A DNA stretch of 64,000 nucleotides from Eutreptiella sp. 'Long Island Sound 2002' (lineage: Eukaryota; Euglenozoa; Euglenophyceae; Eutreptiales; Eutreptiaceae), in NCBI GenBank assembly GCA_964036045.1, contig OZ038379.1, forward strand, positions 20,236,476 through 20,300,475, written 5' to 3'. Positions 1 to 44,849 of the stretch are shown here, one piece after another. Below the pieces are notes generated by a model. The model was not told where the DNA came from. It saw nothing but the letters and a program-made list of their open reading frames with translations, and did not search any database. Position numbers and translations under genes: made by a program. Each line of letters starts with the position of its first letter. Positions within the stretch are counted from its first letter, which is position 1.

Positions 1-1593
1 CCTGAGCCTAAGTTTTTCGCTGAGCCTCAAGCTCCCAAAAGGACTCATGTTTTCGAAGCCTCCCCTTCTTCGGAAGAGAGCACTATCCTTTTGTCGACCT
101 TGCAACAACTCAAGGGTCGTCTTGACAACTTAGAAAATAGGACTAGTGCTAACTTAACCACTAACCCTTGTGTACCTTACCACCCCTCGCCTCTAACCCG
201 AGTGTGCACCGGGCTTGCCGTTGTGCCTCCTGGAGTCAAGTCGCCCTGTGTACCCCGTACCAAAGCACCCAAACCCGTGGCGTGCTTTACCACTACGTAC
301 GAAGTATACACCCTCGACCAAGCCCTCGCCCTAGGACTCGGTCCACTAGCGCCTATGGCGCTACTCCCCAACCCCACACAACCGGTGCCACATACAGGTA
401 GAGGAACCAAAGCTTTTTTCAAACCCCAAACCGAAACCAAACTACCCAAGTTTTCGGGTAGAGACCTCGACGTTTACACCGAAGATTTTTTGAGGTTCTT
501 GAGGTGGACGGGACAAGAAGACCTCAACGAAAGAGCCAAAGCGGACCTTGTTATCAACGGTTGTGATAACAAGGACGTAAAAGAAGTGGTTTCGGGGGCA
601 CTCAAGAAAAGTGACTCTTGGGTAAGGTTCCTTATTACGCTCGAAAAGCTCTACTCTACTTACGTTACCGACCTAGAGCTTATTCAACAGATAGAGCGTA
701 TCCCTCGGTTGAAGGAATACCCTACAACCGCGGACATAGCCCAATACGCCCAAAAGTTTACTACGCTTACGGACCAATTGGCTACGTCCTACTACGACGA
801 CTCCAAAGCCCTCCTACACCTCCTACCTCGTGTTCCGCCCAAAACCATGGACGAAATACGTGCTACTCCCGAGAGGTTGTCTAGAATACACACTTTCAAC
901 TCTCTCGTTGACCTCCTCTACGAGTTGGCCCTCCAGAGAAAGTCCGACGCTACTTTGAAGAACTTGCACTCGATGGCTCAACTCAAGTGGCTAGACGGCA
1001 ACACCAACGCCGACTCCAACGCCCCTATGAACCAAGAAGAAGCCTTTGCCCACTTGCTATGTGAGGAGTGCTTCGTGTCTTTCCAACAAGCACGAGGACA
1101 AGCAAACGGCAACCGTGGTGGTGGCGGTCGTGGCCGTGGAAAAGGTGGACGAGGCAAAGGACAAGGCCAAGGGCAGTGGTATTCGCGAAGGGAAGTCGAG
1201 GGGGACAACTCCACCGCGCCCAAGTTCTTCGCCACCGTGTTTTGCCCCAATTGTGGGACAAAACACAATGTAAGAGACAAGACGTGGCAAGACAGCCTTG
1301 ACGCGAGGAAAGAAGAGCAAAAGCAAACGAAGAAAGGTCAAGGCAAAGGGGGAAAGGACCAAGCGAAAGGAGGAGAAAAAGGAAGTGGAGGAAAAGCGAA
1401 CGGAGGAAAGGCGAACGAAGGAAAAGGAGGCAAAGGAAAAGACGACGACAAAAGAAAGCCTCAAGAGAAGAAACGCTTGGAAGAGTTGACGGAAGGAGAG
1501 CGACAAAAGAAGCGAAAAAGAGTTCTCAAGCTGGAAAGGCAAGCTAAGAACCTCAAGGACTTTCTCGCGGGTCAAACGCCGGGGGAAGCCTAG
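1..1593 (+). CDS. Element A gag (5' end outside window)
   Basis: Capsid/nucleocapsid polyprotein of element A. The frame is open from base 1, so the true start is upstream; the first ATG-like codon inside the window is only an internal TTG. A Pro/Thr-rich N-terminal stretch is followed by a retrotransposon capsid-like helical domain (about nt 430-960) that aligns with element B gag, including the shared LVDL..ELAL..K/E segment. A very basic Gly/Lys/Arg-rich tail (nt 1090-1560) is typical of RNA-binding nucleocapsid. A CPNC-GTKH motif near nt 1240 looks like a degenerate zinc knuckle lacking its last Cys. The frame ends at TAG 1591-1593. Protease follows in the -1 frame, unlike elements B-E, where gag and pol share a frame. 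Confidence 0.85.
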   Translation, partial: PEPKFFAEPQAPKRTHVFEASPSSEESTILLSTLQQLKGRLDNLENRTSANLTTNPCVPYHPSPLTRVCTGLAVVPPGVKSPCVPRTKAPKPVACFTTTYEVYTLDQALALGLGPLAPMALLPNPTQPVPHTGRGTKAFFKPQTETKLPKFSGRDLDVYTEDFLRFLRWTGQEDLNERAKADLVINGCDNKDVKEVVSGALKKSDSWVRFLITLEKLYSTYVTDLELIQQIERIPRLKEYPTTADIAQYAQKFTTLTDQLATSYYDDSKALLHLLPRVPPKTMDEIRATPERLSRIHTFNSLVDLLYELALQRKSDATLKNLHSMAQLKWLDGNTNADSNAPMNQEEAFAHLLCEECFVSFQQARGQANGNRGGGGRGRGKGGRGKGQGQGQWYSRREVEGDNSTAPKFFATVFCPNCGTKHNVRDKTWQDSLDARKEEQKQTKKGQGKGGKDQAKGGEKGSGGKANGGKANEGKGGKGKDDDKRKPQEKKRLEELTEGERQKKRKRVLKLERQAKNLKDFLAGQTPGEA

Positions 1594-2534
1594 GTGGACA
1601 CCGAGACGACGCACCGAGGTATTGCTACCTATTGAGGGTCGCTATCAATGGTGTATGGGTGGACGCATACCTTGATACCGGCGCTACAATCTCCCTAGTC
1701 TCCTCTAGGTTCGTACACTACGAGGACCTAGTTCCCAAAAATATTTGTGGGGTAAAAACAGGAGAAGGGGGAGTCACTCTCACCGAAGGCGAGATAGAAG
1801 GAGAAGTACAAGTGGGGGACCGAAAGGTACTTCAAAAGTTTCAAGCGTTCGACAACGACGCCTTTGAAGCCGTATTTGGGACGGACTTCTTTGCGCAAAA
1901 CGAGTGGATAAAATATTTATCCCTTCAAGAGCCCACTCACTTGTTGGTGGTGAACGAAAAGCAAGAATGGGAAGCAGTACCCCTCAAGGAGACAAAGTGT
2001 CCAAGACCTACGCTCAAGACTCTCAAGAGTTTTCCGTTGGCACTCGATAGCGAGGTGAAGCAAGAGAGTATCCTCGCTACCTTGAGCCTACACCGAACGG
2101 AGAACTACACTCTTGACTCCGCCGCCAAGCGTGACGCGTTTCGAGAACTTGGCCTTAACCCGAACACGTGTAACGGCGACTTTGTCGAAATCTTTGCGTC
2201 CAAAGAGAACGCCGATGCGGAGTACTTTTGTACTCCCAAAACCAACAACACGTGGTGGTATGACTGGGGAAAGTTGGGAGCTTGGAAGATGCTCTACGCC
2301 AACCCCCATTTCTCAAAAATACTCCACACGTTGGTAAAAGTTTATGTGGACCAAGCTACGGTCACGTTGGTTATTCCCGAAGGGAAGAAGTGGGAAGAAA
2401 AAGAAAAGCTATGGGGGCCTATACTCGAAAAGTTGACGGTGACAAAGTTGCTCTTACCTGACGTTCCTCTTTACCGACTTAACCCAAAAGAAGAGGTTTC
2501 GCCAAAGCCCGTTGGCGAACCGCTATGTACCTAG
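1549..2534 (+). CDS. Element A protease plus Dam-like domain
   Basis: Retroviral-type aspartic protease: DTGA active-site motif at nt 1674-1685, with a second-strand segment ending FGTDFF near nt 1880. It would cut the Gag-Pol polyprotein. The frame is open from 1549 but lacks an ATG before the motif, so expression would need a frame change from gag. After protease comes a region (about nt 2090-2470) that aligns with the Dam-like domain of elements B and E. The methyltransferase motif IV appears as NPHF at 2301-2312 instead of NPPF, so it is probably inactive. The frame ends at TAG 2532-2534, overlapping the next frame by 10 bases. By comparison with element B, which has one continuous frame here, I infer indels rather than separate genes. 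Confidence 0.75.
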
Positions 2535-2965: not shown

Positions 2966-2970
2966 AATCG

Positions 2971-7154: not shown

Positions 7155-7166
7155 GGTAGCAGAGGC
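7154..7166 (+). other. Element B primer-binding site (initiator tRNA-Met type)
   Basis: TGGTAGCAGAGGC directly at the LTR end. It is complementary to the 3' end (CUGCUACCA) of initiator tRNA-Met of the type whose acceptor stem starts AGCAGAG. Element E has the same site. The first T overlaps the LTR end. Confidence 0.8.
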
Positions 7167-7236
7167 AGTCCCTTGTGATCTTTTGAACCGACCCTGAGAA
7201 GAAGTGCAGCACACAAAGCTCAACAACAAGTTCATC

Positions 7237-13563: not shown

Positions 13564-16500
13564 TCAGGCGCCCCTGGCTGCAATCGCCCGGGTGAGTGCT
13601 GCCAAGTCCGAGACATGGATCTTGGTCTTTTGCTTGCGGATGTACTCCATGAATGGAGTATTGACCCGCGGCACGAACGAGGAGACGGGTTCCCAGGTGT
13701 CGTGGGACGGCCCATAGCCTCGCCAACGAACCTTGAACTCCAGGCCTCCGGGTGCCGAGGCGTTCGGACGCTGGGCCAGGATCTTCTCGACTGTATAGTC
13801 GTCCTGCTCAGCATAGTCGTCGTCCGAATCTGCCTCATGTCTGGCATAGTCCAGGGACACATGTCGGCCATGGAGTTGACTCTCGTGGCGCTCCCGGAAC
13901 TGTCCGTGACCCACCTTGATGCGGTAGGTGTCCTCACCTATCCTGCGGACCACCTCTCCGGGTGTGAACCAGGTTTTGGTGCGGTGGGTGCCCATAGGGC
14001 GGGGTCTGATCACCCAAACCGGGTCTCCCACCCTGAAGTTCTGCACTGTCGAGCTCGGGGCGGACTTCTGACGCTCAGCATGCTCCTTCTCGAGCTGCTG
14101 GCGGATGTCCCGCGCCGTTTGCTCTTGCCGCGCGAAGAATTCCTTGGCGTCCATGGCCATGCCATCACCCGACAAGGGAAGTCCCCGACCAAGGGGGTCC
14201 CTGCCGAACAGAATCTGGTGAGGGGACAAACCACCCGGCGTGGGGGTGTCATGATGGGCCTTCAATGCGGGCCACATCTCCTCAAACCAGTTCCGACGTG
14301 GATTGGTGATGTGAATCTTGCGCAGCTTCTCGAACAGCTGCCGTCCAGCCACTTCAGCACGGCCGTTAGACCGGCTGAGATAGGCGACGCTCTTGGCATG
14401 ACGTATCCCCATGAGGGAACACATAGCCTTGAACCAGCCACCAGTAAACTGGGGCCCTCGGTCACTGCAAATGGTGCGGGGGATGTCAAAGACGGTCAGC
14501 CAATGACGAATCATCATGACTGCCACTTCCTTGGCAAGCAACCCCTTTTTGCGTGCCGGAACGGCTACTACGTAGCCACTGTGGCGATCCACACAAAGAA
14601 CCACACAGTCAAAGGTCTCCTTGCCAATGTGCACTTCCGGCATGGAGAAGACGTCCATGGCCACGCTCTCCATGGGCTGGTCAGGAACCGGGGTCCATTG
14701 GGCTTCCCCCTTGACGTTCCGGTTATCGGGATTGCAGGCCTGACAGACCGAGCAACCCTTCCTGACCTTCTTGATGGCGGTGTAGAGAACGATATGGTTG
14801 ATCTCGAACCGGCGTTGCATGTCAAGGGCTTGCTTCTTGACCCCTGGGTGCAGCATGTGGTGGTGCCAAGCTTCACACAGCTCGAGCACCCGGGACTCCG
14901 GTACTAGCAGCTTACCATTCCGGTAGAGCTTGCCATCTTCCTCAGTCAGCCCCTTTGGCCACTTCTGCCCGTCATCAGGGTCGGTCACAGCCCTATATTC
15001 GGCCGCAAAGGCCTCAGACTTAGCGTAGTCGTCGGTCCAGTCGTCCTGGAGGCAGGATTCAGGGAAGAGGTGCTTGTCGGACTCAGCTCCCTCAGGGGCG
15101 AGTACTCTGACCGCTCTGCCCATCCTCATTCCGAGGGGGGCATCCGCAGCCATGACGACGAAGCATTTAACACCCTCCTCCTCCATCAGGCGCTCCATTT
15201 CAATGATCCTCTTGGCCTCAGCGGTCTCAGCCTCATCGCCATGGGCAGAGATATCCGTCATGCCCTTGCTGGCGGGATAGGCCGACCTGCTGAGACAGTC
15301 CGCCACGGTGTTATCCTTTCCAGGAATATACACAACCGTGAGGTCGAACTTGGCCAAGGTCTCATGCCATCTTGCCCGTCGGGAGGCGGGACCAGAGGGG
15401 GTGTCCACGTGCTCCTTGTGCCACGACTGCAGACTCTGATGGTCGGTGCAGACGGTGACGGGATGGAGGGCTATGTACCCAGCCCATTTCCTGAGAGCCA
15501 TGACGATGGCATACGCCTCCTTTTCACGGGGCGTCCACGTCCGTCTCTGGCCTTCCGCCAGGACTCGGCTCCAGAAGGCCACGGGCACGTGCCTCCCATC
15601 GTCAAGCACTTGCTCCAACACAGCGCCTACGGCGTAGTCGGAAGCGTCGGTGCGCAGGACGAACCCTCGGTCGGGATCCACGAGGTGCAGACCCACTGCG
15701 GATAGCAGCGCCTGCTTCATCCCCTCAAAGGCACGGTCGGAATCAGCATCCCAGACCAGAGCCTTCTTGGACCCCTTCTTGGTCTCCTCTCGGTTGCCCT
15801 TGAGCATGGTCGTCATGGGGGCTGCATACTCGGCATACATTTTGATATACCCCGAGTAGTAGTTGCAGAACCCCAGATACGCCCGTAGCTCAGAGACCGT
15901 TTTGGGCTTTCCCCAGTGCTCAATCGCGGCCACCTTGCCAGGTATGGGCTTTCGCTGCCCGTTCCCAACTACGTGGCCAGCGAAGACCACCTCGCTTACC
16001 GCAATGGTGGCCTTGTCACTGCTGCCCGTGAGTTTGTGCCGAACCAGAAGGTCCAGCACTCGAGTCACGTCCCTCTCATGTGCCTCCAGGAGCTCCTCGT
16101 AGCTCATACTGGGGTCCCCGGACGCGATGATTACGTCGTCCACGAAGGGGTCCGCACAGTCACGCACCGGCTCAAGCAGGGTCTCCAGCATCCGCTGAAA
16201 AGCCGCATTGCCGTTGGTAACGCCCATGGGCATCACCTTCCACTGGAGAGGTCCAAGTGGGGTGCTCATGGCTGTGCAGGCACGGGACTCCTCGGCGAGA
16301 GGCATCTGATGATAACCATGTTTCAGGTCAATCACCGTGAAGATCCTCCGCCGGTGTTGTTTTTGCAGCATATCCTCAATGAGGGGCAGCGTATAGCTGT
16401 CGTGCTGCGTTTGGGCGTTTGGGCCGCAGTAGTCGACCACGAGCCGCCACTCCCCTGCCACCTTCTTGGGGACGACGAAGCATGGAGAGGCCCACTCGGA

Positions 16501-17012
16501 GTGGCACGGCTCGAGCCAGCCTCTCTCGATGAAGTCACGGAGGATCTTCTCCATGGCTTCCTTCCTCTCGCCCCTCAGGGCAAACTCCCGGTGTCGATAC
16601 ACACGGGGTCCCTGCTTCAGTCGTATCTTGGCCTCGCCATACGGTCCACGCACCGGTGGGGGAAACACAGGCTTACCGCTGAAGAAGGTATCACCATACT
16701 TCTGCTTCAGCCTGGCCCTCAATGCCTGGATCTTGGGGCAATCGTCGGACTCCGCCTTGGCTTTCCCGGGCACTTGAACCACGGAGCTTACTTGAGGGGT
16801 AGCGACCCCGCTCGGTTTCGGCTCAGGCGGTCTTCCCAGGTGGCCCAAAGGGCCATCTCTGGTCTTGCCTCGGAATAGATCGCCGTAGGTGGGTGGGTTA
16901 CCCCCGATTGGCTCGTCCTGGCTGGAGAGGTGGTCCAGTACCCTCCTTACGAAGGTATCTCCATCATAGGAACCAGAGACGATCGAGTCCACTTCCCACC
17001 AGGCTCTGTCCT
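13564..17012 (-). pseudogene. Element C pol, 3' part: RT, RNase H, integrase, chromodomain
   Basis: Continuation of C pol downstream (on the minus strand) of the E insertion; the frame joins exactly through the GGCCC duplication. RT carries FVDD (plus 16135-16146) and the VDY segment, but two residues differ from element D there (Cys and Pro for Arg and Leu). RNase H follows with TDAS, then the integrase HHCC zinc domain, and the integrase core with Asp, the Asp of SDRGPQF and the Glu of NGRAEV, all retained. A C-terminal chromodomain (about plus 13830-13640, with WRGYG and WEP) would bind methylated histone tails and steer integration. It lacks seven residues present in D before that domain. 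It ends at TGA. Its enzyme motifs are intact, but the gene is split by E and has a premature stop upstream (27390-27392). Confidence 0.93.
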
Positions 17013-17017
17013 GGCCC

Positions 17018-17497
17018 TGTAACGGCAGCAGTGACAGCACTCAATTATACACTGATGTGATCAGAATTTCAATGATTCTCAGATGTACATTAGTGCAGTA
17101 AATTTTCCGTTCTGTTTCATTTTTTCCGTTCGCCGCCAGATGTCGCCTGTGAGCGCGCGTCGAGTCGCATTTGTCTTTTGTGATTTCCCAATCGGATTTA
17201 TTTAAATTATTTCGAATGATTTCACGTCGTGTCATTAGTTGCGATGAATGCGCATTGAGATTCTATGTCTGCTCCATTTTTGTAGACCGGGTTTTCGTAC
17301 TCTTCATATTCCACCATGGAGTTCACTGGACTTACAAGTGCTTCGCATATGTCGCTCCCAGAGGCTGGGTATGGGTCCGAAGAGGGTTATGTGGGTTCGG
17401 AGATATCAGTGGCAGTGTCGGGCGTTACGACCCCTGGGGCATCAAGGCTACAGGCTTCGCAGTCACAACAAAGATCAACCACTATGCAGCGGTTACA
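17018..17497 (+). repeat. Element E 5' LTR
   Basis: A 480-bp copy of 26810-27289 with ends TGTAAC and GTTACA. The gag ATG lies inside it at 17316 (context ACCATGG), so R/U5 doubles as coding sequence. A minus-strand 64-codon frame is a shadow. Confidence 0.96.
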
Positions 17498-20482
17498 TGG
17501 TAGCAGAGGAAATCATGACTCTGCTTCTGGAATCTCCACTGATACTCTGAGATCGTCGGACTTTAGCGGGGCTATTACTCCTTCTGGGTCGCTGCGTGTT
17601 CCCCCTGAGGTTACATTCGTAGCATCTCCCCAGCGAACCGAAGATCAACCATCAGAGTGCCCTTACTGTGGCCATAAACATTGGCCTGGTGTTCATACTT
17701 GTGCTGAGTGTTGCATGAACGCCCCATCCAACCTTAAACCCGGTCGAGAATCTCCCTCCTCGAGTGAATCTGGTTCCTCCTCTCAAGCTTTGCCTGATCT
17801 TGAAGACAGCAGCAGCGAAGGAGAGCAGTCTGGTACTGGAATTAGTGGTGATTACTGGGAAAACCACTTCCAGGAGATTTGGAATGAGGAATTCCTGCAC
17901 AGGCAGAATTGGCTGCTGGCAGAGGCGGGCTATCGTGGCCGCCTGAGGGACTGGTTAAGGGCGTCGTGCCAGTTCCTCAGGGACAGCGGCCGGTCGAGAT
18001 TTGACGCCACAATGCAGGAGCAAGAGGACTGGGAGGAGCTGATGGACCAGTTCGACCACCAGGCCGCCGTGATGGTGCAGATGGCCATCATCGCCGAGGA
18101 GAGACGCCAGAATGTGCATCCGCACGCTGGTCCGTCAGGCGTCTGGGGTCGGAACGACGACGGAGTCGACGAAATGAGGTGTGATTCGACACATTCGCAC
18201 CTCTCCAGGGAGCAACTGTCCAAACTCCCCAGCTCTGCCTCCAGTGTTGACACTTGGGTCGACGAGGTAAGAAGCAGGGGAAAAGGGACAAGATGCCCGT
18301 CCTGTGGTGAATGTGCCAAGGACTGCTCCTGTCGACGCCAGATTTCGTCGCTGGAAAACAAGGTGAAGGAGCTGAAGAAGGACGCCAAGGAGAGAAAGAG
18401 GGATGATGACAGCAAGTGGAAGGAGATGGAGCAGAAGCTGGAGAAGCTTACAAATCTGGTACAAAATCTGAGCACTACTGGGCTCTCTGGACCAGCGCCT
18501 ACAATGGCAAGCCACCCAGCACCTACCTCCTCACCTGCACCCACATCCACGCCTTACGGCGTTCCACATTCTCCAGCACCCCCAGCTTTTACTGGCCACC
18601 ATCCAGCTTTTACTGGAATTTTTGGTATCCCCCCTACTGGATTTGGAAGTCCTATTGGGTTCAATCTGGGTACCGAAGGAGGAGAATCTTCGTCGGGAAA
18701 GTCTGTACTGTCTGTGGGTACTGTTGCGGATATTGATGGAGAAGCAAGGACCACTGTGAAGGAGCGATCCATGGCCTTGAAGAAGGACCGGCAGCAGAAA
18801 GAAAACGAGGCAAAAATCAAAGAAAAGCAGAAGAAATTGCAGGAGATGAGGATGCATCAAGCTCAACCAACGCCGTTCGTGCAGCCCACTGTGGACCAGG
18901 CGTTGCTGGCGGCCGCAATTGCGCAGGCACAGGCAATGGGAGGCGCCGCAGTCAATCCAGTTTTCGTCAATCCGGTCGGCACAGCCACCAACTTCAACCT
19001 GAACCACTTGCTGAACCCTTTGCACATGAGGCTGAGAGGGTCAGTAATGAAGCAGCCGAAGTTCTCAGGACACCCAAATTACTGGGCGTCCTTCGAGAGG
19101 CAGTTCATGGTGTGGCTGCAGACGGAGAAGCTGGACAAGGAGCTCTGGATCCTTGGGCTGATGGACTGCTTGACGGGCAAGCTCAGGGAAAGTACCTACA
19201 ACCTTTATGTCGAAAGACAAAATCAAGGGAACCTCCTGAGCTATGAGGAGTTGTATCGCAGTCTCAAGAAGAAAGGGTCTCGACTACCTGAAGATCATTA
19301 CAGGAACCGTCTGGAGAACTTCAGGGCGATCAAGAAATTATTTCTGGAAGAGATTCAAATTGCAAGGCAAGATTGGGAGTTTTTGGTGCAAGAGGCGGAG
19401 AACTCTGGAGAAGGACTTTCTGAAGGCGAAATGAAGAAGATGCTCCTGAGCAAGCTCACGCCGGAGACCAAGCAGAAGATCAGGGACTCTCAGGCGGACC
19501 AAAAAGTCCTGGGCAACTGGGTTGAAGTCCGAGGATTACCAGAAACTATGGGAAAAATCGCTGTTCGTGAGTTGCTACACTCTATCAGTGCTACTGGATT
19601 GAAGGATATCACTATTCGTGAGGGCAGATGGAGAGTTGGTTTCCACGATTCTGAGCAGTCGGAGTTTTTCTGCAGCATGGTGGATGGAAAAGTGAAGTAT
19701 AAGGGAACAGTTTTGAAGGTACGACCGTGGATCTTCAGTTATGGAGTCGAGCAGATCTGGGACCAACTTGAAAAGTATGCAAACTTAGACAGCAGAAGTC
19801 CCAGGATGCACATGGCTTCGGAGGCAAGGTCAACGCCGTTGGTGAGAAGGGATGCTCTGTGTGCATTGCCCTTGGAAAAGAAGGTCGAGCGGCGACTCAC
19901 ACGACCGCAGATCACAGGTGGACGCCCTCAGATCTCAAGACAATTCAGTCCAAAATGGATGGAAAGGGAAATTCTCCCAAAAATCCCCAGCAGGATGGAG
20001 CACGAGATGCTCACCAGCATGGAAGGGGAAAGGGTAAAGGGCAGTCGGAAGGAAAGAACAGAGACTGGACACCGAAAGATTACTCGCAGCAAGGCGGAGA
20101 TCCAAGCGACTCAAGATGGACCGGTGCTGGTGGAAAAAATGGTGGAAAAAATGGCCAAAAAGGTGGAAATGGCAAGGGAAAGTCCGGGAATCAAGATGAT
20201 TCCAAGGTGAATGGCAACCCCCTGTACGCGGAGACGCCAGCGAACAAGACCTTCGGCAACAACAAGGATACTGGAGGTCGAGGCAAGGGCAGATCCAACG
20301 AATCCAACCCCAATTCCAACACCTCCAACAACAAAGGTCAAGGTGGTAAAAAAGGTGGTGGTGGAAAATCATTTGGTGGTCGTGGACGTGGAAAAGGAGT
20401 GAATGCTGTCGAAGCAGGAGAAGAATGGGTTGACGAAGGACAAGTACAAGACGTACAGCCAAACGAAGAAGAAGAATGGCAA
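17316..20482 (+). CDS. Element E gag, with RRM-like domain; one frameshift
   Basis: Gag beginning at an ATG inside the 5' LTR. Domains: a Cys/His cluster (CPYC...HTCAEC, nt about 17660-17720); an acidic helical region; a second Cys cluster (CPSCGECAKDCSC, about 18295); a coiled coil (about 18355-18470); a Pro-rich linker; a capsid-like domain (about 19020-19500). At 19515-19730 an RRM-like fold is suggested by a VEVRGLP strand and a WRVGF strand. Then come a CxxC...H...H finger and a basic Gly/Lys/Asn tail. The tail is in frame 2, whereas the N-terminal part is in frame 0. Loss of one C in the CCC at 19800-19802 explains the shift. The restored frame reaches TAG 20483. Two extra Cys motifs and an RRM-like domain are unusual for an LTR gag. 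Confidence 0.8.
17498..17509 (+). other. Element E primer-binding site (initiator tRNA-Met type)
   Basis: TGGTAGCAGAGG starts at the first base after the LTR. It is complementary to CCUCUGCUACCA, the 3' end of AGCAGAG-type initiator tRNA-Met. The gag frame reads straight through it. Confidence 0.85.
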
Positions 20483-20485
20483 TAG
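20483..20485 (+). other. In-frame UAG between gag and pol of element E
   Basis: Context CAA UAG GGA. The same frame (positions 2 mod 3) continues open on both sides, so suppression of one codon would yield Gag-Pol. The UAG-GGA context resembles the murine leukemia virus gag-pol readthrough site. Confidence 0.65.
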
Positions 20486-23400
20486 GGAAGCCAACTTGAC
20501 CCAAATCCCAACACTGGGGTTGAGTGGCAGGAGACAAAACCCATCAGGGTAGTTGGGGCGGTGGATGGACGCTGCTGGGACCGGCTAGCGCGCTCCTCTG
20601 GCCTCCTGTACCCTGCCTGGGTCCTCAGCGCTGTCCGGCGAGGCAAGCAGCGCCAGTTTGTCTGCTGGATCCAGGTCAGATCGACGGATGGTAAGGTTAA
20701 ACTTGCCAGATGTCTGATCGACAATGGTTCAGAGGTGAACCTGGTGAGGAAAGGCTTTCTGCAGGAGGATGAGACGAAGATGTCCTCCACCCCTGTCCAG
20801 CTGGAGGGAGTCAGCGGACATCGCCTTGACGGTGGCGACAGAGAGGCAGAATTGGCGGTCAGATTGGTGAAACAATCAGTCTGGAGTGTGGAAGAGACGG
20901 TCACTGAGGAGTGGTTTGCTGGAAAATTCTATGAGGCCAGCATAAAGTACGATTTATTCTTGGGTCAACCATGGCTTCACGCTCATCGTGTGTCGCCCAT
21001 GGGACACAGGACGTGCTTCCTCCAGGATCCGTCGACCAGCGACCCGTCCGACCTGTATTATCTGCACCCATATACCAAGAGTATCCACCAATTCAAGGAG
21101 AGAAATAAGCTGCATTTTCAGCAAGATGGGCAGGAATGGACAGGGAATCAAGAAGATTTCGACGAAGAAAAGGTGGATTCGTTGAACAGCAAGAAGTGCA
21201 AGTCAGTTTGCTATCGAGTCGTCGACAAATGGCGGGACATTCTGGTGGATTATTTCGAAAAGAACCACAATTTTCGTCCTGAAGTTGATGCTTTTGCAAA
21301 CAAAAAGAATAAAAGATTTCCGAAGTTCTACGACGATGCCTGGAGTGAGGACTGGTCTGAACCTCTTTGGATCAATCCGCCCTTCGACGTTTTTCCTCGT
21401 GTGGTGCAGAAGCTGAAGCAATCCGGCGCAAAGGCGATTTTAATTGTCCCCAATGGGCCAAGACAAGAGTGGTTCAAGGACATTATGGACATTTCTATCG
21501 ACATTGTCGAGCTACCTCACAAGGGATTGAAGCTGTATTGCGAAGACAATGGCAAGCCTTTGCCACAGCGTTCGTGGAGCACGTTGGCGTGCTTAGTTGA
21601 CGGGAATCTGGGAGATTGTTGGCAAGATGACAGTGAAATGGGAACAGAAGAGGTTATCTCAAATTCCTCAAGAATCGACGAAATTGAGGTGGATGAAGAC
21701 GATCGAGAGCGGAATCCCGACGTATCGTCGCGGAAGGAGGGAAGGACAATCGGCGTCCCTCAAGAGAACGCCTCCATCCATTACAATTCGTCCCCATCAG
21801 ACAAGAATCAAGCCAAAAGAGTCAAGATTTCAAGTAAGAATGAAGACAAATCTCCAAGAATCTCGCCTGAATTGACAGGAATGAAGCTGAATTCGTCCGA
21901 CCATCCCTTCAAGACATTTGTGGACCCCTTTCATTGGTGGGATCCCACGGAGGAGCGAGCTCAGGTGAGCTTCATCCGCCAGCAATGCGACGAAGAAGTT
22001 TGGAATGAAGTGGCCAAGAACATGAGACCACGACCAACAATTCGCAAATTGGTGGACATAATGTCGGTGATTAAATGTGGGAATCAGGTCGACGGAGACA
22101 AGATATCTGCAAGAAGGGACGCAGTGTTCGAAGATTATCAAGATGACGTGCTGAGTGGGAAGTTGTGGAAAAACCCCCCAATTCGATGTGAAAATGGGGA
22201 AGCCAAGATTGACATAATCGAAGGCTCAAAGGTGCACAAACAATGTCCATTCTATCTCCACGGCACCAAAGCAGATGCCCTGCGAAAGATTATTGAGCGC
22301 AATCTCTATGAGTTCGGTTGGTTGGAGGGCTGCATGAGTTCTGAGTGGTGTTCAGCACCATTTACTGTGCCAAAACCCCCACCTGCTGACCAATCCAGCA
22401 TAGATGCTTGGCGTCTAGTGGTGGATTACAGAGCCCTGAATGCCGCCACAGTACCAGACGCGCATCCTCCTCCTCTAATAGAGAAGGAGATCGCTGCGAG
22501 AGCCAAAGGCAAGCTCTTTACTGTGTTGGATTTGCGCCATGGCTTTCATCAAATGCCACTTCGAAAAGAGGACAGGCATTTGACGGCAATGTGCACGCCC
22601 TGTGGCACTGTCCAGTGGACTGTACTGCCGATGGGTCTGAAGAATGCGCCGTCGATGTTCCAGAAGATGATGGAGACTATTTTTTTTTCAGAAGCACAAA
22701 GATCTGGATTTACAAGAATTCTGCAGCATCTACATCGACGACCTTCTGATTGCCACGCCGTTGGGAAAAAACTTTGATGAGTGCCGGAAGTTGCACGAAG
22801 AACAAGTTCGAAAAGTTCTCGAAGTCCTTCGACAAGAGAAGCTCGTGTGTGGACCCAAGAAGGGCAAAATGTTCCTCCAGAGTGTGGAATTTTGTGGCTC
22901 TGTTTTGGAAGATGAGACAAGAAGACCAGCCCCAGGAAAAATGGCTGCCCTGCAGCTCTGGGAAAGGCCTAAAACCATCACGCAGCTTCATGCCTTTTTA
23001 GGCTGCTGCAATTACTACCACGAGTTCCTTCCTCTCTACGCCAAGTTCTCTGGTCCATTGACAGAGTTACTGAAGGTCGGCAAAATAGAAGGAAAGAAGG
23101 GATCTCAAGTCAAGCTCAAGTGGACGCCAGAATGTGAAGAGGCATTTACTGGTCTCAAGGAAGCACTGGCAAATGTGGTTACATTAAAGACTCCGTGGTT
23201 GGATGGAAGACCTTTTTATATTCGTACAGACGCCAGTCGTTACGCCATTGGTGCTACGACCGAACAAGTCGACGACGAAGGTCACCATCATCCTCTGGCT
23301 TTCTGGTCTCGCAAGCTTACAACAAGGCAGCGAAATTGGAGTCCAAGGGAACAAGAAGCCTACGCAATCCTTTGTGCCTTACGGCGCTATGAAGGTTGGA

Positions 23401-25463
23401 TCTTGGGCCATCGCGTTGAGGTACTGACTGACCACAAGTCACTGGAGAGCTGGAGGACAGAACATGTGGATACCCCTGGTGGACCAGCTGGGAGAAGAGG
23501 CCGTTGGCATGAAACTCTCAGCAGATTTGACCTCCATGTGACTTACATTCCGGGTCGCTACAATACAGTGGCGGACGCCCTGAGTCGCTGGGCCTACCCA
23601 GCCTCAGAGGCTTACTCTGAAGTGAGTTTTCATGGGACAGCGACGGATAAAGCTGAAGTGATCGAGTTCGACAAGGAGGAACAAGCACTGATCAAGAAAC
23701 ATTGTCTCCAATGTTCGATTAAAAATCGGATGAAGGTGGATTTGGTCAGATGCAAGGAGATTACCAAGGCAGATCAGACTGCAGGAGTTAACTCTGACTC
23801 TGAGTCGTCGCTGCCACTCCTAAATGTGTTTCCAACGACAAGATCCAAAGCGAAATCCACGCTCCCTCCACAACAAAAGGACAAGGAAACTTCCTTCCTC
23901 TATGTGGATTGGACGAAGATGTACAAGGAGGACAGGTTCTTTGGGTCTGTATACCACAAGTTGAAAGGGGACAAGCCTTACGACTCTGAAGAGACGTCTG
24001 ATTTCAAAATCCAAGGCGACAAGTTATTTTGGCAAGGACGGATTTGTGTTCCTGATTGTCTGATTGACCCATATGTCAAACATTGGCATCGGAATGAGAC
24101 AGCCCACACACATTCTCGTGTGCTGGAACAGGAGCTACGCCACAGAGTGTACACAAGGGACCTCAAGGGTGCCTGTGAACGAGTTGCCAAAGGATGCAAG
24201 CAATGTCAGGCGACCATCCCCAAGAATCAAAAGGCAGAAGGACTACTGAAGGGATTACCAATTCCTGAGAGGCTGTTCGACAAGGTGACGGCGGATGTCT
24301 TCGAGTTGGGACAAATCCAAGAGGAATGTCTCTACACGAGGAAGCCTATCGATGGGGTTTTGTTAATTCAAGACCGCCACAGTGGCTACATCCAGGTCCT
24401 CCCTTGCAACACGAAGCATCTCACCTCTGAAATGGCTGCCAAGTGGACTGCAAGTCAGTGGATGAGTAACTGGGATGTTCCCAGTGAAATTCTGACGGAC
24501 AGTGGGAAAGAGTTCATGGGGACTTGGTGGGAGAACATGTGTGCCCTATTGGGAGTTCATCACCTTCGTGCCCGAGTCTACGACCATCGAGCTCTCCCTG
24601 CTGAACGCGCTGGAAGGATTCTTATCTCCATTCTGAGAAAATTCCTGGCGACTGAAAAAGACTACAATTGGTTGGAGACAATTTACTGTGTCTTGAGAAG
24701 ATACCATCGCACCAAGAATTACACTGGATTAAGTCCGAATGAGCTGGTTTTTGGTCGTGGGAAGATGGGTCCAGGACCAGTGATGTATCATCCAAGGCAG
24801 TGCTACGACGCCTCGCAATGGTTTGAGAGGATCAAGGATTTAGAAGCCAAGTGGATCCAAGCCAAAGTGGAAAGTCAAGCAGATTGGTTGAATTTCAAAA
24901 ATAAGTCAAGAACGCAAGGAAAACCCTTCGAGAAAGGCCAGCAAGTTTGGCTTCGTAAGTCAGACGAGACCCTGAAGGACGACAACAAATTGTTACCTTT
25001 GTGGGATGGCCCATTCCAAGTCAAAAGTCAACTAAGTGAGACTACATTCAACATTGAGATTGAGCAAGGCAGGCATCAAGAAGTACATCGAGATCGTTTG
25101 AAGGCCGAAGTACCATGCCCCAAAGGAAGGTTCAAGCCTCTCTATTGGACTTCGAAGTACCTGAGCGACAGGAAGATGGTCACAAGCAGTTTCGAGTTGG
25201 AGAAGATTCTTGAGTACAAGAAGAATGCTCGAGGCAAGTGGTACTTTCTGTGCAGATGGAAAGGATTCGGTCCAGAAGAAGACAAATGGGAGCCAGCTTC
25301 AAGTTTTATCCATGGGTATACGGATACTTTCATCAAGTTCCTAAAGAAACACCCTGAGATTGACAAAGAGCTCTCGCTGATCAAGGATTGTGTCACCAAG
25401 GAAGACTTACAAGCACAAGAAGAAGCTCCAATCGTGGCATCATCCATCCCTGACAAGATCTGA
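20486..25463 (+). pseudogene. Element E pol: protease, Dam-like, RT, RNase H, integrase, chromodomain (one frameshift)
   Basis: Polyprotein in frame with gag after UAG. The aspartic protease has DNGS at 20720-20731 instead of DTG/DSG. The Dam-like domain (about 21200-21610) shows VDAFAN, NPPF at 21374-21385, an I-VP strand and GKPLPQ, in the order seen in phage Dam methyltransferases. RT follows. Its frame breaks at a nine-T run (22680-22688) just before YIDD (22731-22742, found in the new frame). One extra T explains this, and the frame then stays open to TGA 25463. RNase H has RTDAS (about 23224). The integrase has Asp, the Asp of TDSGKEF and the Glu of PAERAG. The chromodomain is at about 25185-25340. 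Apart from the single base, all motifs look intact, so it is either newly dead or a homopolymer assembly error. Confidence 0.92.
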
Positions 25464-26809
25464 TCAGAATTTGGGTCGCCGAAACTTTCGAAGAGGTTTA
25501 CGGTCGACATATACCCTTGGCACGGGGACATAACAGTCCAGACGCATCGTCTATGTGGTTCGACGAACAGATGATGGGACATTCTGGGGTCATCCTGGTC
25601 ATTCCATCCATCATTCCCATCATGGCCATCATGTGAATCATGTGCTTCATCTCAGATGATTCCAATCCGAAGATCCGAAAGGCCTTTATCCTCAACCACG
25701 ACGACACTATCACCTTTTGCTGTCGGCTGGACCCCTCTACTCGCCTTGGGAAGGACTCGTTCGAGTTCGTGCTCATTACAGAGATTCTGGCGCATGACTG
25801 AGTCTGATCCATTTCATGTGTTTGACGGATCTGCTCAGAATGTGATTTCCATCAGCTCTTACTTTGAGACGGTTGGTTTGTTTTTCAATCGACCACTGTC
25901 AAAGGGCTTATATAGACCAAGTGACGACGATGGTGTTCTTACTTGTGTCGACTCGCTGTTCATCTGTGGATTGTGTTGGAATCCCCCTCAGAATCAGCTC
26001 AATTTTGGCAAATTCCCAGTACCGAGCATTGGATGCTTATACATTCTGGGACTATAACGAGTCACTTACCCCTTCTGGCTCATACTGGATTAAACATGAA
26101 GCCCTGGGAACAATACTGACAGTGTGGGGAATCCCCACTGGGTTTTCTTGGCTATCATTACTTTAAATGATTGGATTTCCATCATGGGGATCATCATCAT
26201 TCTGAGGATTTGACCTGGATTGGCTATGAATGAGAACTGGATTTCCGTTCAACACTACACACAGTGTCTATCGACATTGAATTGGACCTATTTTGGCTTG
26301 CGCTGAGTTTCGCCACCCTGAATCCGTGTGCGATTCACTGATTTTGGTCTCAATTTTGGCACATTTTGTACCATAATCTGGCATTTGGTCTCATGACTGC
26401 AAATGACACCAGCCAGTTTCACTTATCTTAGACTCCATGAAGGGATACCCTATTTTTTTGACGCTCGACGACATGGCGACGCTCGTTTTCTGTTTTCTGG
26501 CAATGGGATGTCAGATCCTGATTTCATCATGAATCATGGATCATGGATCATCATGTACATTCTTCACTCAGACTTTCAATTTTCAAATTTTCGAGCTTGA
26601 ACAAAGCTTTTTCTGTGTGCCCTGAGGTACCTATACGTTTTATTCAAGTCGATGGCCATCGCGAAGCACAGATCTCAGCACAATTTTGCTCAATTCAGCT
26701 CAATTTCACACATTTTGCCTTAGATTAGGCAGTTTTTGGTCACTTTCGCCGTTTCGTTCACTTCACTTGACCCAGCCTGACATACTGGCGTATGTTTTCA
26801 GAGGGGGAG
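25464..26809 (+). other. Element E 3' untranslated region and polypurine tract
   Basis: No gene seen. AT-rich sequence with many CATCAT-type short repeats and TTTTGGC/ATTTTGGCA stretches. The polypurine tract AGAGGGGGAG (26800-26809) directly precedes the 3' LTR. Confidence 0.8.
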
Positions 26810-27289
26810 TGTAACGGCAGCAGTGACAGCACTCAATTATACACTGATGTGATCAGAATTTCAATGATTCTCAGATGTACATTAGTGCAGTAAATTTTCC
26901 GTTCTGTTTCATGTTTTCCGTTCGCCGCCAGATGTCGCCTGTGAGCGCGCGTCGAGTCGCATTTGTCTTTCGTGATTTCCCAATCGGATTTATTTAAATT
27001 ATTTCGAATGATTTCACGTCGTGTCATTAGTTGCGATGAATGCGCATTGAGATTCTATGTCTGCTCCATTTTTGTAGACCGGGTTTTCGTACTCTTCATA
27101 TTCCACCATGGAGTTCACTGGACTTACAAGTGCTTCGCATATGTCGCTCCCAGAGGCTGGATATGGGTCCGAAGAGGGTTATGTGGGTTCGGAGATATCA
27201 GGGGCAGTGTCGGGCGTTGCGACCCCTGGGGCATCAAGGCTACAGGCTTCGCAGTCACAACAAAGATCAACCACTATGCAGCGGTTACA
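26810..27289 (+). repeat. Element E 3' LTR
   Basis: A 480-bp partner of 17018-17497, followed by the duplicated GGCCC. The gag-start frame (ATG 27108) is present here too but runs out into antisense C pol sequence and is not a gene. Confidence 0.96.
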
Positions 27290-28796
27290 GGCCCTTGCCC
27301 TCACGCTGGCTACCCCAGTCGTGAAAGGGCTGATCCATATACCCCTGAACCAGATCCAGCTCCTCTTCTGTGAGGGGGTCCTCCGATTCTCAGATGTCAA
27401 CAGGGGGAACCGCAAAGCATTGCCGCCATGGCTCTGCTATGATGCGGTTGACACACACGAAATCCGTGGCGTCGGCCTGATCAAGGCCCCCATCCACATA
27501 GTGGAAATCCGTCGGCCATCTCTGGGGTGGCATGGGCTGTCCCTTAGCGTCCTGATAGACACTCTCTCCAGCCGGTAGGACGACCTTGTTTAAGGTCATG
27601 TTGGTCAATGAGACTACCCAATGTCGGGTACTTTCCTCCTCGGTGCATCCCATAGGAACAACCAGCACTGCCTTGGAGCGGTCCTTGCGAATCTTCGCTA
27701 TCGCTCTTGGAATGTCCCAACGGGGGCAATGGATCCACATCAATTCCTGATGCGGACCCCAGTGCTTCTTCCACGCGGAGTCCTGTGCGCTCCAGTACTT
27801 CTCACAAACCCGCAGATGGGCGGAGGTTCCTGAAGAGAACGCATCCAGGGCCAGATCCGAAGCTCCCAGGTCCGCAACAACTCGGCTCGCCACTTCCGGC
27901 ATTACGCCGTACTCCTGGTTTGCAGGACCAGTTGGCTCAGTGTCCAGCGCGGCCACTTCGAGCTGATTGCGTTCCGGGTGGATCCATTGGCATTCCACAT
28001 GATGCTCAGGTGACGATAGCCACGAGAGCTGGTCGTCCTGGTACAGGGTCATCGAGGCCTGGGCCGGGAGGACGCCGGAGTCCGTCTCCATCATGAAGTC
28101 GTACCCAACGATCATGTCCCAGTCCATCTCGGCCTCGTAGAAGCGACCGTGCAGGAGGATTTCCTTGCCGAGGTCTGGGCGGCTCAGCTCACGATGGTTC
28201 ACGAACTGCAGCCCAATGGCCGCTTCCTTCGTGCCTCCCACCATGTACTGGCCGTTTGCCACCTTCAGCCTGACAATTTTCGGACTGTCGGTCAAACACT
28301 CTGGCGGAAGTAGGCCAGCCTTGACCAAGCTGACCTGAGCGCCCGTGTCGACCAACACGTCGAAGACCTTTTCCACTTCCCCGCATAAGGCACGGACCTT
28401 AAGGTGCAACTGCCGCTCACGCCCAACTCGGCGCACGGCGTGCAAGCTCAGGATCTCCGGCCGTTCCAGAAGCTCAACAAGCGACTGGTGCAGGTCGTGG
28501 ACAATGGGCTCAGGCTGCCCATCTGCAGCATCCAGCTGCGGTCCGGGTGATCCTCCGATACTCCTGGATAGATCTTGAAGTACATCAAACACATTCTTGG
28601 TCGCGAAGGACGGACGGGTGCAAGGGTTCGTGCCTTCACTTGCCCTCACCCCGCCTCCGCGACTGGGTGCCGGACCGGGCCTTCTGCCCGCGGCAGTCCC
28701 TTTGTGCTTATCTACTCCCGACTGGGATGGTTCGGCGCTTCCCACGTCACCATCCTGCGACCGCCCTAGCTGGGGCCCTTGGCTGCAGGGGCTCCG
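27290..28796 (-). pseudogene. Element C pol, 5' part: protease and Dam-like domain
   Basis: First part of C pol, in the same frame as C gag after its UAG (minus strand). Protease has the motif LVDTGAQVSLV (plus about 28350). A Dam-like domain follows (plus about 27890-27450), with LDAFSS, then WIHCPRW where active relatives have a WxNPPF/Y loop, a VVP strand and GQPMPPQ. The catalytic loop is thus degenerate, as in element D, and methyl transfer is unlikely. A premature TGA at plus 27390-27392, where D has GAA, together with a small deletion, stops the frame 33 codons before the E insertion. Beyond it the D-like sequence resumes in frame up to the GGCCC target site. Confidence 0.88.
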
Positions 28797-28799
28797 CTA
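28797..28799 (-). other. In-frame UAG between gag and pol of element C
   Basis: Minus-strand context CCC UAG CGG AGC, identical to element D at 49621. Gag and protease are in the same frame, 18 codons apart from the next listed start. Confidence 0.65.
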
Positions 28800-37003: not shown

Positions 37004-38515
37004 CACCGTCACGTTGTTGAAAATGGACTGGCGGCCCTTCAGGTAAAGCTGGATGAGATCCAGGTGGAATTGTTTGCGAGCCAACAACAGCACATCATGC
37101 AGTTGTACTGCTCAAAACAACTGAACAATGCTTTCCATTTCTTCTGGAAAGCAATGGGCCTAGCGTATGCTAATCCTCCCTTCTCCCTGCTCGCGAAGGT
37201 TCTAACCAAAATCGCTTATGAGGGAGGAAGGGTTGTCATGTGCACCCCTGACTGGGGCTGCTCTGGTGAACATGCTTACTGGCGCCGCATGCTAGATCGA
37301 ATGACTGTGGGAAGAGTGCAACTCCCCGACGGCCGCATCTATGTGCCTGAGGACTCAGACACAGCTATGCAGGCCCCTGAGTGGGCCAGTTTCCTGTCCA
37401 TCGTCGATGGATCTCTCAATCCTGTACCCCTGTGTGACCTAGACCAGGTGCTACTGAAAGAGTTCATGGCCGAAAATTGTGGTCTGACCCTGTATGATCT
37501 CAAAAATCGATCTCCTGAGCACCTATCTGCCACACTTACAGGGTGTGAGTCTCCCGATGACTATCTGGAACCTGCAGCCGTAAAAGAGGATGCTGACGAC
37601 CAACTGTCTGAGATCGCCAGCACTATTCCTCCTGTGGATCCCAGCTGTGTTGACCTAAAACACAGTGCCTTCCTCGCCCAGCTGTTGCTAGAGGAGGTAG
37701 ATCTAGAGTCAACCCCTGAACCCGCTTCCCCTGTTGGGAAGCCAGTGCTACACATGCAGCCTATGCACACAGGTGAACCCGTGGCCAGTGCTGATGCTCT
37801 GGCGCGGCCTGCTGCTAATAACATGCCATTGTCTGAGCATGACACTCAGGAACTCCGGCGGCTGTTGTACCTGAAGGCCGAAGGTATTGAGCGCCAAGAG
37901 CGGCTGCAATACCTCAGACAGACCTGGAAATCCTCCATCTGGTCTGAGGAGGACGATGAGTCCTATACGCTGCCTGATCCTGAGATACCGCTAGTGTATT
38001 CTCTGCACTATGGGCAGCAATGTCCCCCTGAGTGGGACGATGGTACTGTGCCTGCCGAAACTGCTGATCGGCAGAAAAAGAAAGAACATGGAAAGAGCAA
38101 CCTCCATGCTGAGGAGGATTTCCTTCAGAAACTCGAGAGTCTTAACCTTGACCCCCGCCTGAAGAAACTGCTGATAATCTATGAGGAGGTGTTCGGCGCT
38201 TTGCCGCCTCCCCTCTCCTGTAAAAAACTGGTCCAGATGGACCTGAAACTGAAACCTGATTTTGAAAAGACGCGAGTGAGGCGTCGTCCCTATCCTGCTC
38301 CACAGGAACAGGTTGAAGAAATCGAGCGCCAGATCCAGGAATGTATTGATGCTGGCCTCGTTGAAGAATATAAGCAGGGGGACTACCCCCATCACTGCAG
38401 TCCCTGTTTCCTGGTTGCCAAACTTTTTAACGAAACAACCAACACGAACGCAATGCATGCGTGTGAGGTGACACTGGCATACCTGGGAGGTGGGTTGTCC
38501 ACCTGCTCCGTGTAG
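37004..38515 (+). pseudogene. Element B Dam-like domain, linker and truncated RT
   Basis: Same frame as the second half of the protease. A Dam-like domain comes first: LFAS, then NPPF at 37172-37183, a VVMCTP strand and a PDGRIYVP end. Of the five elements, only B and E keep an NPPF motif. A long acidic linker with LLEEVD follows, then the RT N-terminus up to CSPCFLVAK at about 38422, where it aligns closely with element A. Beyond 38423 the sequence no longer encodes RT; the last 31 codons (to TAG) are unrelated. The remaining RT, RNase H, integrase and chromodomain are absent, so this pol cannot work alone. Confidence 0.88.
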
Positions 38516-39230: not shown

Positions 39231-39237
39231 AGGGGGG
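39231..39237 (+). other. Element B polypurine tract
   Basis: AGGGGGG immediately upstream of the 3' LTR start AGTAAG; primes plus-strand DNA synthesis. Confidence 0.8.
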
Positions 39238-39946: not shown

Positions 39947-39951
39947 GAGGA

Positions 39952-41903: not shown

Positions 41904-44849
41904 TGAAGCGGTACCCAGAACCCCATGGCCAGGTTACGGCATACAACCGGTCTCCGGTCCACTAACCCCATGCACGGCGTGTTCCGTGCCGTGAAGCCCC
42001 GCATCGGCAACCGATGCACCGCCAGCGGGGATTTGTGTATCAGAATATCAGGAATCAACAGGGTTTTATTTTCATATTGTTTCCGTCAATTTTTACGCTT
42101 CCGTTCTGATACTCACTGTTTTGACTGCTGGCGGTTGGTTCGCGACTTTACCGTAACCGCCAGTTTAACTGTTTATAATGGAAATTTTAACGCTATCCGC
42201 GACGAAGGCTCCAAAGTCGCCAGGAACTGCATGGATGCTTCCGCAATTTTCATAATTAATACTCGCAACCTTAATCCGAATTTTTCAGGATGTCGAAATC
42301 GGATTTTCGACTTCGACATCCCCGCACTTGATTTGACCTCTTTCGAGTGGACCTACGTGCTTCCGTATGCACGAATCAACTTCCCTTTTATCCTGCCCTC
42401 CATTTGTCTTAAAGATATGGGCAAAACAAAGTTGATTCGTGAGGCCACTTGTGAAGGTCATATCTCGTGTTGCTTGCGAGTATTGACGATAAGGAAACGT
42501 GGGATGTATTCACAATACTCCCGACGTAATTTAGGAAGCATTATATGCCTTGCGTCTCCACACGTGCGCGCTAGTGTAATGGATCATGGTCAATAGGGTA
42601 GAGTTTGCGTTATAACTCTTTGGCCATGACATTGCGTGCGTTAAGATAACTTTCGAGTGTAGCGCGCAAGTGTTGGTGTTGCATAGGAACTCTCCTTGAG
42701 TTCCTATGACCGATTGACACAAAGTTATGCCCTTGGAGGGGCATGACATATCGTGGTGGGAGCCACCTTTTTGGGCAATATTTGGTATGTGCCATGTGTT
42801 GTGTTGCGTGCCCATTTGGCGGGTCCATTGCTCCAAGACAAGCCCGCCAATGGACCTCATATTGTGCAAGCCCCTTCTCCATACTCCCTACGATCAATTG
42901 CAAGCCTAACCTTCGTGAAGGGAAGCTTGTGTGGTGAACCCGAAGCGATGCGTTGGGAGCAAAGGGTGTATTTTGCAATTTTCCATATTTTCATGTGCCC
43001 ACTTGGGAAGTAGCGCTCGTAACCTTTCAAGGCGCCCCAAGTGGAGCACATATGTAGGATCGAAGGTCATTGGTGTCAAGTCATTGTGTTTAGAAGGATT
43101 AGTTGATTGCACGATCCAAGCCAAAGATATTATAATATAATTGTGTGCCTTTCAAGGCACTTTGGTTTGTCTTTGTGCCAATTTTGCCATTTTTGGCTCG
43201 TCATGATGTCAAGTGGCGAACGTATATCTCAACGTTGCGCTCAATTGACATCATGACCCAAGTATGTTATGAGGGTACATACTTCGGTCGCCAACATATC
43301 TTGGACCCGGCGAATAACTCCTCTTAGGCTTGGCATACCGTGGCCGCCATGTTGGCGATTTGGGACTATCCCAAATCATGGGCTCACTTGGCGACCCTGC
43401 CATTCCCAATACCGGAGGAGTTGGGCGACGCCCAAAAGATATGTTGGACCAACATGACTTGATACCAATCCTATGGCACACTCCGGTCCGAGTCGGGCAT
43501 GTGCCTCATTTGCCCCAACCATGAGTGTGCGCATTTTTGGCCATTTTGAGCATTTTTCCACTTTTGCTGCCCGCCGTGCCCCATGTTCTAACCTTCGTGC
43601 ACGCCGGACGCATGGACCAATGGACCATATATGACATGGGTGTTATGGGTAATGGTCCCCATGGTCCACACACCACGTGGGCGAAGCGGAGCCGCCTTCG
43701 TCAAGGCGCTAGGCCAAATTGAGTATGGGCAATTTTGCCATTTTTGCATTCGTGGACCCAATTGGGATCGTCACCACGCCAAGCAGCATGGAGATCTTTG
43801 AGAGCCAAGGGCATGGGAGTCTCCGTTGGACTCCCGGTGGATCACGTATGGAATGGCGGATCCGATCTCCAAGCCGGCGTGGAGATATACTATTGGGAGC
43901 ACACCGAATTTTGGCTCATTTCAGGCAGCCAAAATGACCCAATTTTGGGACCCCAATTTCCCCCTTCCGTGTGGTCAATTGGCGGCCCCATTTCTCTAAG
44001 CCCATAGGGAGCCCGGACCTAAATTCAAGTTGTACACTCAGACATAAGTCCTAGGTCCTGCCTCCTACCCTGTGAGCCATTGGCCTTACCTTGGCCGGGC
44101 GAGCCACGCGTGGGAGTGACGCCAATTTTGGTGATTTTGGCATCATGACCCCACATGACTCATCCGTGTTGCCCTGATGCCGGGACCTCAGAGGGAACCA
44201 GGTTGGGTGAGGGCTCCAGGGGGTTCGTACTCGAAGGGCACAGGGTCAGTCGCCTCGTCCCTACCTCTGGCGGGTCCGGACGAGGGGTCAATTTTGGGGA
44301 TTTTTGAGTTAATTTCAGTTTGGGCTGAAACAGCCCATTTTCAGCTACCAACTCCTGGGTGATAATGGCGGGGCCATATCTCTGGCTCAGAGTGGAGTTG
44401 GGACCTGCCATTAAGGGAGCATAGGGAGCCACTGTCGGTTGGCCTTGGAGCCCCTTGGTTCCCAGGAACTCGCCTGTGGCTGGGCGGGACACCCCCCCTA
44501 TTGGCAGGGTTTCAGGGTCCGGACTGAGCAGGGCATGGGTTGTGTTTGAGCCCCCGCCCCCATCAGCCACTGAGAGGGTCGGACCTGGGATTGGGATATG
44601 AGTTGGGACTGAGTGTCTATGGTCCCGTGATGCCCTTACCCCAGTCCAGTCTTAACCCCATGTGTACATATCCTGATGTGTTGCTGTACATACTTTCGTT
44701 CCCTCTTTGCAGAGTGGCAAGGATTCTGAAACGCTTTGTCACATGACACAGGCGTATTGATGCCCTTGTGAGCGTAGTGCCTTGCCTGCCTGCTCACCTG
44801 TGCGTGTCACCGCAGCGTCCCGTGGCCGGCCCCCCACGGGAACGCGTCA
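41904..44849 (+). repeat. Element D 5' LTR
   Basis: 2946 bp, TGAAGCGG...GCGTCA. The exact 11-mer TGAAACGCTTT (44727-44737) is the predicted RNA 5' end under self-priming; a TACATAC about 35 bp upstream could be a TATA-like element. U3 contains a hairpin (9-bp arms, 42289-42320) also found at the right window edge. Frames inside, such as 41925-42596 (repeated in the 3' copy), show no domain and are not called genes. Confidence 0.95.

Follow-up and report, generated by a model that had tools for sequence, protein, structure and literature searches.

Analysis of a 64,000-nt stretch of contig OZ038379.1 from Eutreptiella sp. (hereafter, the window; source assembly of 2.28 Gb in 2205 contigs) revealed that the Pol polyprotein of several Ty3/Gypsy retrotransposon families carries a domain homologous to phage Dam methyltransferases, located between the protease (PR) and the reverse transcriptase (RT). 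Five elements in the window, labelled A to E, encode this methyltransferase domain (MT), and in the E family it is under purifying selection. We interpret it as a Dam-type N6-adenine methyltransferase resident in Pol, which is probably active on the cDNA or RNA of the element in the E-like families and looks non-catalytic in D and in a further group, F, both of which have lost the catalytic motif. To this reading as a whole, with the residence in Pol, the selection in E and the mechanism outlined below all included, we assign a probability of about 0.45.

Position of the domain in Pol

The initial annotation of the window held that the same domain follows the protease in all five elements, and the order PR–MT–RT was indeed recovered in each of them, partly by eye. 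After translation and trimming of the five stretches singled out in that annotation, the domain comprises 134–145 residues; the five sequences align end to end, with 24%–32% identity to E, and the order of their five motif blocks is constant. The succession described for E, namely, VDAFAN (approximately 21284–21301), NPPF (21374–21385), the ILIVP strand (with the proline at approximately 21449–21451) and GKPLPQ (approximately 21551–21568), was found as described. Downstream of the MT, RT was identified by Pfam in A, D and E, beyond a nested copy of E in C, and by eye in B. Upstream, PR scores over the Pfam cut-off in A (6.3e-9), falls below it in C and D (0.03) and was recognized by eye in B and E; the 763-aa frame of E contains no Pfam protease at an E-value ≤1, and the E protease is 32% identical to that of D. 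B has an in-frame stop between PR and the MT.

The designation of all five elements as chromoviruses holds for B, C, D and E, where a chromodomain scores over the cut-off, and fails for A, in the last frame of which (5449–6537) no chromodomain was found. The features that define Ty3/Gypsy chromoviruses, that is, long terminal repeats (LTR), the PR–RT–RNaseH–integrase (INT) order and a C-terminal chromodomain, are present in D, in C and, across two frames, in E, with rve integrase scores under the Pfam cut-off in all three.

Homology to phage Dam methyltransferases

When excised from its frame, the E domain matches the Pfam family Dam (PF05869) with 29.7 bits (E-value 6.2e-7), exceeding the curated cut-off (28.1 bits), as well as the phrog_111 DNA methyltransferase (8e-9) and TIGR01712 phage_N6A_met (1.1e-5; 25 bits with a cut-off of 97). 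Dam is also the best Pfam match of the excised domains of A (4.3e-4, 20.4 bits), B (5.2e-4, 20.2 bits) and D (0.014, 15.5 bits), and is matched by the whole frame of C (0.011, 15.9 bits), all below the cut-off. Dam is missing at an E-value ≤1 from the whole-frame Pfam scans of E (763 aa) and D (1656 aa), and we therefore rely on the excised domains. Outside the window, 6 of 6 representatives of the groups introduced below pass the cut-off: F (46.3 bits), G (40.6), H (30.6 and 30.7), I (33.2) and the A-type copy L032 (30.7). Profile–profile alignment with seven phage Dams gave 96.9% over 72 columns and, when nine group representatives were used, 97.7% over 84 columns, placing VDAFA opposite (L/V)D(V/A)AA and NPPF opposite NPPY, and aligning the IVP strand to the LIP strand of the phage enzymes; by eye, GKP comes next in both.

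A Dam profile search of the source genome brought up 3814 candidates, of which 150 were scored and 93 matched at E-values ≤1e-3; of 14 control genomes, E. coli alone gave a signal of the family. The profile built from the five window domains alone recovered 20 of 20 loci brought up by the Dam search of the same genome, so that the two routes agree. Relatives beyond the source genome were not confirmed in viral contigs (queried with E, A1 and L021) or in genome contigs (queried with E), these searches reaching close relatives only. A 21-mer of the dinoflagellate spliced leader had no match in the source genome, in a search that may pass over common words. Sequence search of solved structures gave protease-like matches for A (E above 0.1), and the sole match of profile A1 among solved chains at an E-value ≤10 was an unrelated lectin (9.3).

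The structural models of the E and D domains both show a methyltransferase fold of the kind that uses S-adenosylmethionine (SAM). Their best named matches in BFVD, a library of viral structures, are phage DNA N6-adenine methyltransferases, with giant-virus PCIF1-like proteins also among the matches, and in PDB the chains of PCIF1 come first for both models, with T4 Dam close behind. The Dam-like identity suggested in the initial annotation, which was to be abandoned if the predicted fold lacked a Rossmann-type core or the best profiles lay elsewhere, has stood up: the core is present, and the sequence profiles, the profile–profile alignment and the two models concur on an N6-adenine core of the Dam/PCIF1 type. 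Homology to phage Dam-type N6-adenine methyltransferases, together with the predicted SAM-methyltransferase fold, appears nearly certain. Conversely, we rejected the notion of chance motifs in an unrelated domain, to which the scores of A, B, C and D under the Pfam cut-off and the whole-frame scans of E and D might point; given the excised E domain and the 6 of 6 representatives over the cut-off, and the agreement of profile and fold, it is exceedingly improbable.

Domain groups and the fate of the catalytic motif

In the source genome, eight groups of the domain were separated by eye, namely, A-type, B, C/D, E, F (L001–L020 and L034–L040), G (L021–L028), H (L030 and L031) and I (L029). Pfam places RT after the domain in A, C, D, E, F and G. 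PR scores over the cut-off in A and weakly in C, D and H; for B, E, F and G, it was recognized by eye (its end part only in G). At the group loci, RT was not seen for H, and neither neighbour for I.

The motif [DN]PP[YFW] has a catalytic role in this class of enzymes. It is kept as NPPF or NPPW in six of the eight groups (A-type, as in L032, B, E, G, H and I), including 17 of the 18 E copies chosen by RT, and has been lost from two, C/D (HCPR) and F (NAPF). The acidic position of motif I is kept across all groups, and hence SAM binding may outlast catalysis in D and F. The initial annotation had correctly described NPPF as kept in B and E and the motif as degenerate in C/D. By contrast, its view of A as degenerate was rejected because NPHF is confined to the window copy (the sister copy L032 has NPPF), and HCSR, given as the state of D, is likewise copy-specific: among 19 D copies other than that of the window (L064–L082), 17 have HCPR, one HCTR and one HCSR. 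The fetched F copies mostly carry NAPF, with a single NTPF, a single DAPF and one copy unread by the script.

Both motif-keeping and motif-less families are represented by many near-identical copies. Among the matches listed, the E family has at least 150 at 97%–100% identity, with 5 of 15 fetched loci in 1658-aa frames, and the D family at least 150 at 99%–100% identity, with 3 of 20 fetched loci (the window copy included) in 1673-aa frames. The MT identities among five groups, 21%–47%, agree with the age implied by the proposed ancient acquisition of the domain; it may have been acquired once or more than once, the MT and RT identities of these groups being weakly correlated (rho 0.44; 28 of 120 permutations equally good).

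Selection on the domain

For E, 20 copies were chosen by RT from a list of 150, regardless of the MT, and the domain was fetched with its linkers; two were dropped before the final count, L094 being a place without the domain and L089 being misaligned by an indel. In the remaining 18, the ratio of nonsynonymous to synonymous substitution rates (dN/dS) is 0.133 for the MT and 0.371 and 0.468 for the linkers. Segregating nonsynonymous and synonymous changes (N:S) stand at 39.5:50.5 in the MT versus 51.5:27.5 in the linkers (p = 0.009), and variants shared between copies at 5.5:21.5 versus 11:5 (p = 0.003). Copies chosen by MT score had given 0.042 for E and 0.036 for D, values that were set aside as biased, the E set being replaced by the RT-chosen one. 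In the motif-less window pair C/D (two copies), the MT differs by 6 nonsynonymous and 8 synonymous changes, with a dN/dS of 0.21 (0.13 for PR); F, with copies chosen by MT score, gave 0.17–0.22, and at 0.22 its flanks show 0.61 and 0.69. At synonymous sites, the 18 E copies have diverged by 0.122 in the MT and by less, 0.095 and 0.052, in the linkers, perhaps owing to mosaic copies or codon make-up.

Possible function and alternative readings

We propose that the MT enters the particle within Gag-Pol, either fused to RT or released by PR. In the groups with NPPF or NPPW, it would bind SAM and, while reverse transcription proceeds or right after it, methylate adenines in the nucleic acid of its own element; a writer adjoining RT would meet the RNA template, the hybrid and the new cDNA inside the particle. 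The substrate of first choice would be cDNA, yielding N6-methyladenine (6mA), and that of second choice RNA, yielding N6-methyladenosine (m6A) or, at the cap, its 2'-O-methylated form (m6Am). The new copy would arrive already carrying the mark, with permissive chromatin or protection from host nucleases as possible benefits, and might read as host-like; 6mA has been tied to permissive chromatin in several eukaryotes (PMC12695648). In D and F, where catalysis would have been lost, the domain may remain as a part of Pol that binds nucleic acid or supports RT, its retention without the motif calling for such a second, non-catalytic use. Both roles envisaged in the initial annotation, modifying element DNA and a structural one, may therefore be realized, the motif-keeping groups possibly being enzymes and D and F looking non-catalytic. 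Taken further, a large group of Ty3/Gypsy elements might possess its own adenine-methylation writer in Pol, marking RNA or cDNA in the particle before integration as a self-supplied epigenetic tag, with the writer of two lineages reduced to a pseudo-enzyme, serving as a scaffold or relying on active relatives that share the cell; we offer this wider picture tentatively, the odds being against it.

Several observations weigh against an active Dam-type enzyme. Two numerous groups, D and F, lack the motif, so that success does not depend on it. E also lacks the N-terminal W-x-T-P, which all seven phage Dams examined possess, and the domain is hence a relative of phage Dam rather than a phage-type Dam proper. 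These points, along with the prevalence of HCPR among D copies and of NAPF in F, and the standing of D among the most numerous and constrained families, would suit a structural pseudo-enzyme in every family, whose fold binds nucleic acid or supports RT and in which NPPF is kept for folding or substrate stacking. Nevertheless, retention of NPPF or NPPW in six divergent groups and in nearly all E copies is above expectation if catalysis were irrelevant, and we consider this alternative rather unlikely.

As for the models, just one of the five for E, computed from an alignment of window sequences alone, was good (predicted local distance difference test, pLDDT, 76.1), and Foldseek found no match for it in PDB at 1e-3; the D model (pLDDT 85.5) came from an alignment that included four phage Dams. 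The nearest solved fold for both, PCIF1, is an RNA enzyme, which, with the giant-virus PCIF1-like proteins among the BFVD matches, favours a PCIF1-like RNA adenine methyltransferase that would act on element RNA, at cap-next or inner adenosines, and aid translation, packaging or escape from sensing; we regard this as unlikely.

Finally, when all 20 E copies are counted, the two ill-fitting ones included, dN/dS is 0.363 for the MT and 0.541 and 0.608 for the linkers (p = 0.083), and copies chosen by MT score gave 1.0 for G (seven copies) and 0.83 for the A pair. The G and A values, together with motif decay in two groups, would be expected of a passive relic without function, but such a relic is already disfavoured for E, where the MT is constrained relative to its own linkers, and is at odds with the C/D ratio and with that of F relative to its flanks (F copies picked by MT score); we deem it improbable. 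If, as in the reading we prefer, the domain writes 6mA or m6A, the mark is expected on E-family copies or RNAs and not on those of the D family.

Features of the window

Table 1. Coordinates of the methyltransferase domains and associated features in the window
Element	Feature	Position	Strand	Remarks
E	MT domain	21203..21604	+	VDAFAN, NPPF, ILIVP, GKPLPQ; Pfam Dam 29.7 bits; fold model
E	pol frame, PR–MT–start of RT, 763 aa	20486..22777	+	PR by eye
E	pol frame, RT–RNaseH–INT–chromodomain	22671..25463	+	Separate frame in window copy; single 1658-aa frame in other copies
E	5' LTR, 480 nt	17018..17497	+	98.96% identical to 3' LTR; TG...CA ends; 5-base duplication GGCCC
E	3' LTR	26810..27289	+	Pair of 17018..17497
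E	gag-like frame, 974 aa, upstream of pol	17286..20210	+	gag by position; no Pfam family over cut-off
D	MT domain	50500..50934	+	LDAFSS, HCSR replacing NPPF, VLVVP, GQPMPP; fold model
D	pol, PR–MT–RT–RNaseH–INT–chromodomain, one frame	49675..54645	+	1656 aa from this start
D	LTR pair, 2942 nt	41904..44845 and 56071..59012	+	99.76% identical
C (D family)	MT domain with HCPR	27486..27920	-	Domain limits
C	RT–RNaseH–INT–chromodomain part of pol	13564..17040	-	Split from PR–MT by E insertion
A	MT domain	2091..2516	+	VEIFAS, NPHF (copy-specific), LVIP
A	Frame with PR and MT	1548..2534	+	RT in frame 2929–5448
B	MT domain	37004..37414	+	VELFAS, NPPF, CTP

The window contains a nested insertion, in which C (9294–36381, minus strand; LTRs at 9294–12109 and 33566–36381, 98.6% identical) is broken in pol after the MT by E (17018–27289), with GGCCC as the target duplication. 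The PR–MT and RT–chromodomain parts of C that flank E match D at 95.2% and 93.9%, respectively. Frames of approximately 1450 aa occupy the gag position upstream in C (28797–33233, minus strand) and D (45259–49623, plus strand); that of C (1460 aa scanned) showed no Pfam family at an E-value ≤1. A and B share near their 3' parts a stretch of approximately 716 bases (6441–7155 and 39232–39947) that is 98.5% identical despite their distant proteins and may represent either an LTR or a third element; the peptide tail that it encodes also terminates an F-group frame (L011). A related LTR, matching that of D at 76%, leaves the window end (63622–63991), and between A and the C LTR another element is represented by a gag-like frame (7198–9405, plus strand), with a cysteine-histidine motif recognized by eye.

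Comparison with known systems

Dam-type methyltransferase domains are already known in DIRS retroelements, which carry them after RNase H in an RT–RNaseH–MT pol accompanied by a tyrosine recombinase and lack PR and a DDE integrase (PMC3783388; PMC3266345); the function of the domain in DIRS was called unknown in an overview of 2011 (PMC3266345). The elements described here resemble DIRS in having a retroelement Pol with a PF05869-detected domain, and differ in that they are LTR elements, possess a DDE-type integrase and, in the case of B to E, also a chromodomain, and have the domain placed between PR and RT. Membership in DIRS was rejected by domain order, since the MT precedes RT, and PR and an rve-like integrase are present. 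Cytosine methyltransferases have been acquired by a Gypsy-type element of Klebsormidium nitens (KnitGypsy-Dnmt3, with Gypsy-type domains), a dinoflagellate long interspersed nuclear element (SymbioLINE-Dnmt) and DIRS elements (SymbioDIRS-Dnmt3); these parallel the present case as retrotransposons with an acquired DNA methyltransferase, but their enzymes are called structurally unrelated to Dam-like ones (PMC5890265), whereas the window domain is predicted to be of the Dam N6-adenine type. A brown-algal Sola transposon encodes a ParB-methyltransferase, likewise an accessory protein, whose predicted product is 6mA or N4-methylcytosine (4mC), although in a DNA transposon, as a separate gene and with other domains (PMC12477816).

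With phage Dam (PF05869, TIGR01712 and phrog_111), the domain shares the order D-x-[FA]-A, NPP[YF], hydrophobic strand and GKP, as well as the predicted fold, but the phage enzymes are standalone, with W-x-T-P and NPPY, whereas the window domains reside in Pol, with NPPF/W or a degenerate motif. PCIF1/CAPAM, a cap-adenosine N6-methyltransferase with the motif NPPF, provides the best solved fold for both models; it differs in having an RNA cap as substrate, and its likeness to the window domains is one of fold only, no sequence-profile match having been found. In the literature searched, which takes in few subscription papers, no account of a Dam domain placed between PR and RT was found. Collectively, relative to these systems, the domain occupies a different place, in LTR elements with a DDE-type integrase and in young families with many near-identical copies; because motif-keeping and motif-less families reside side by side, the question of its function becomes testable within one genome.
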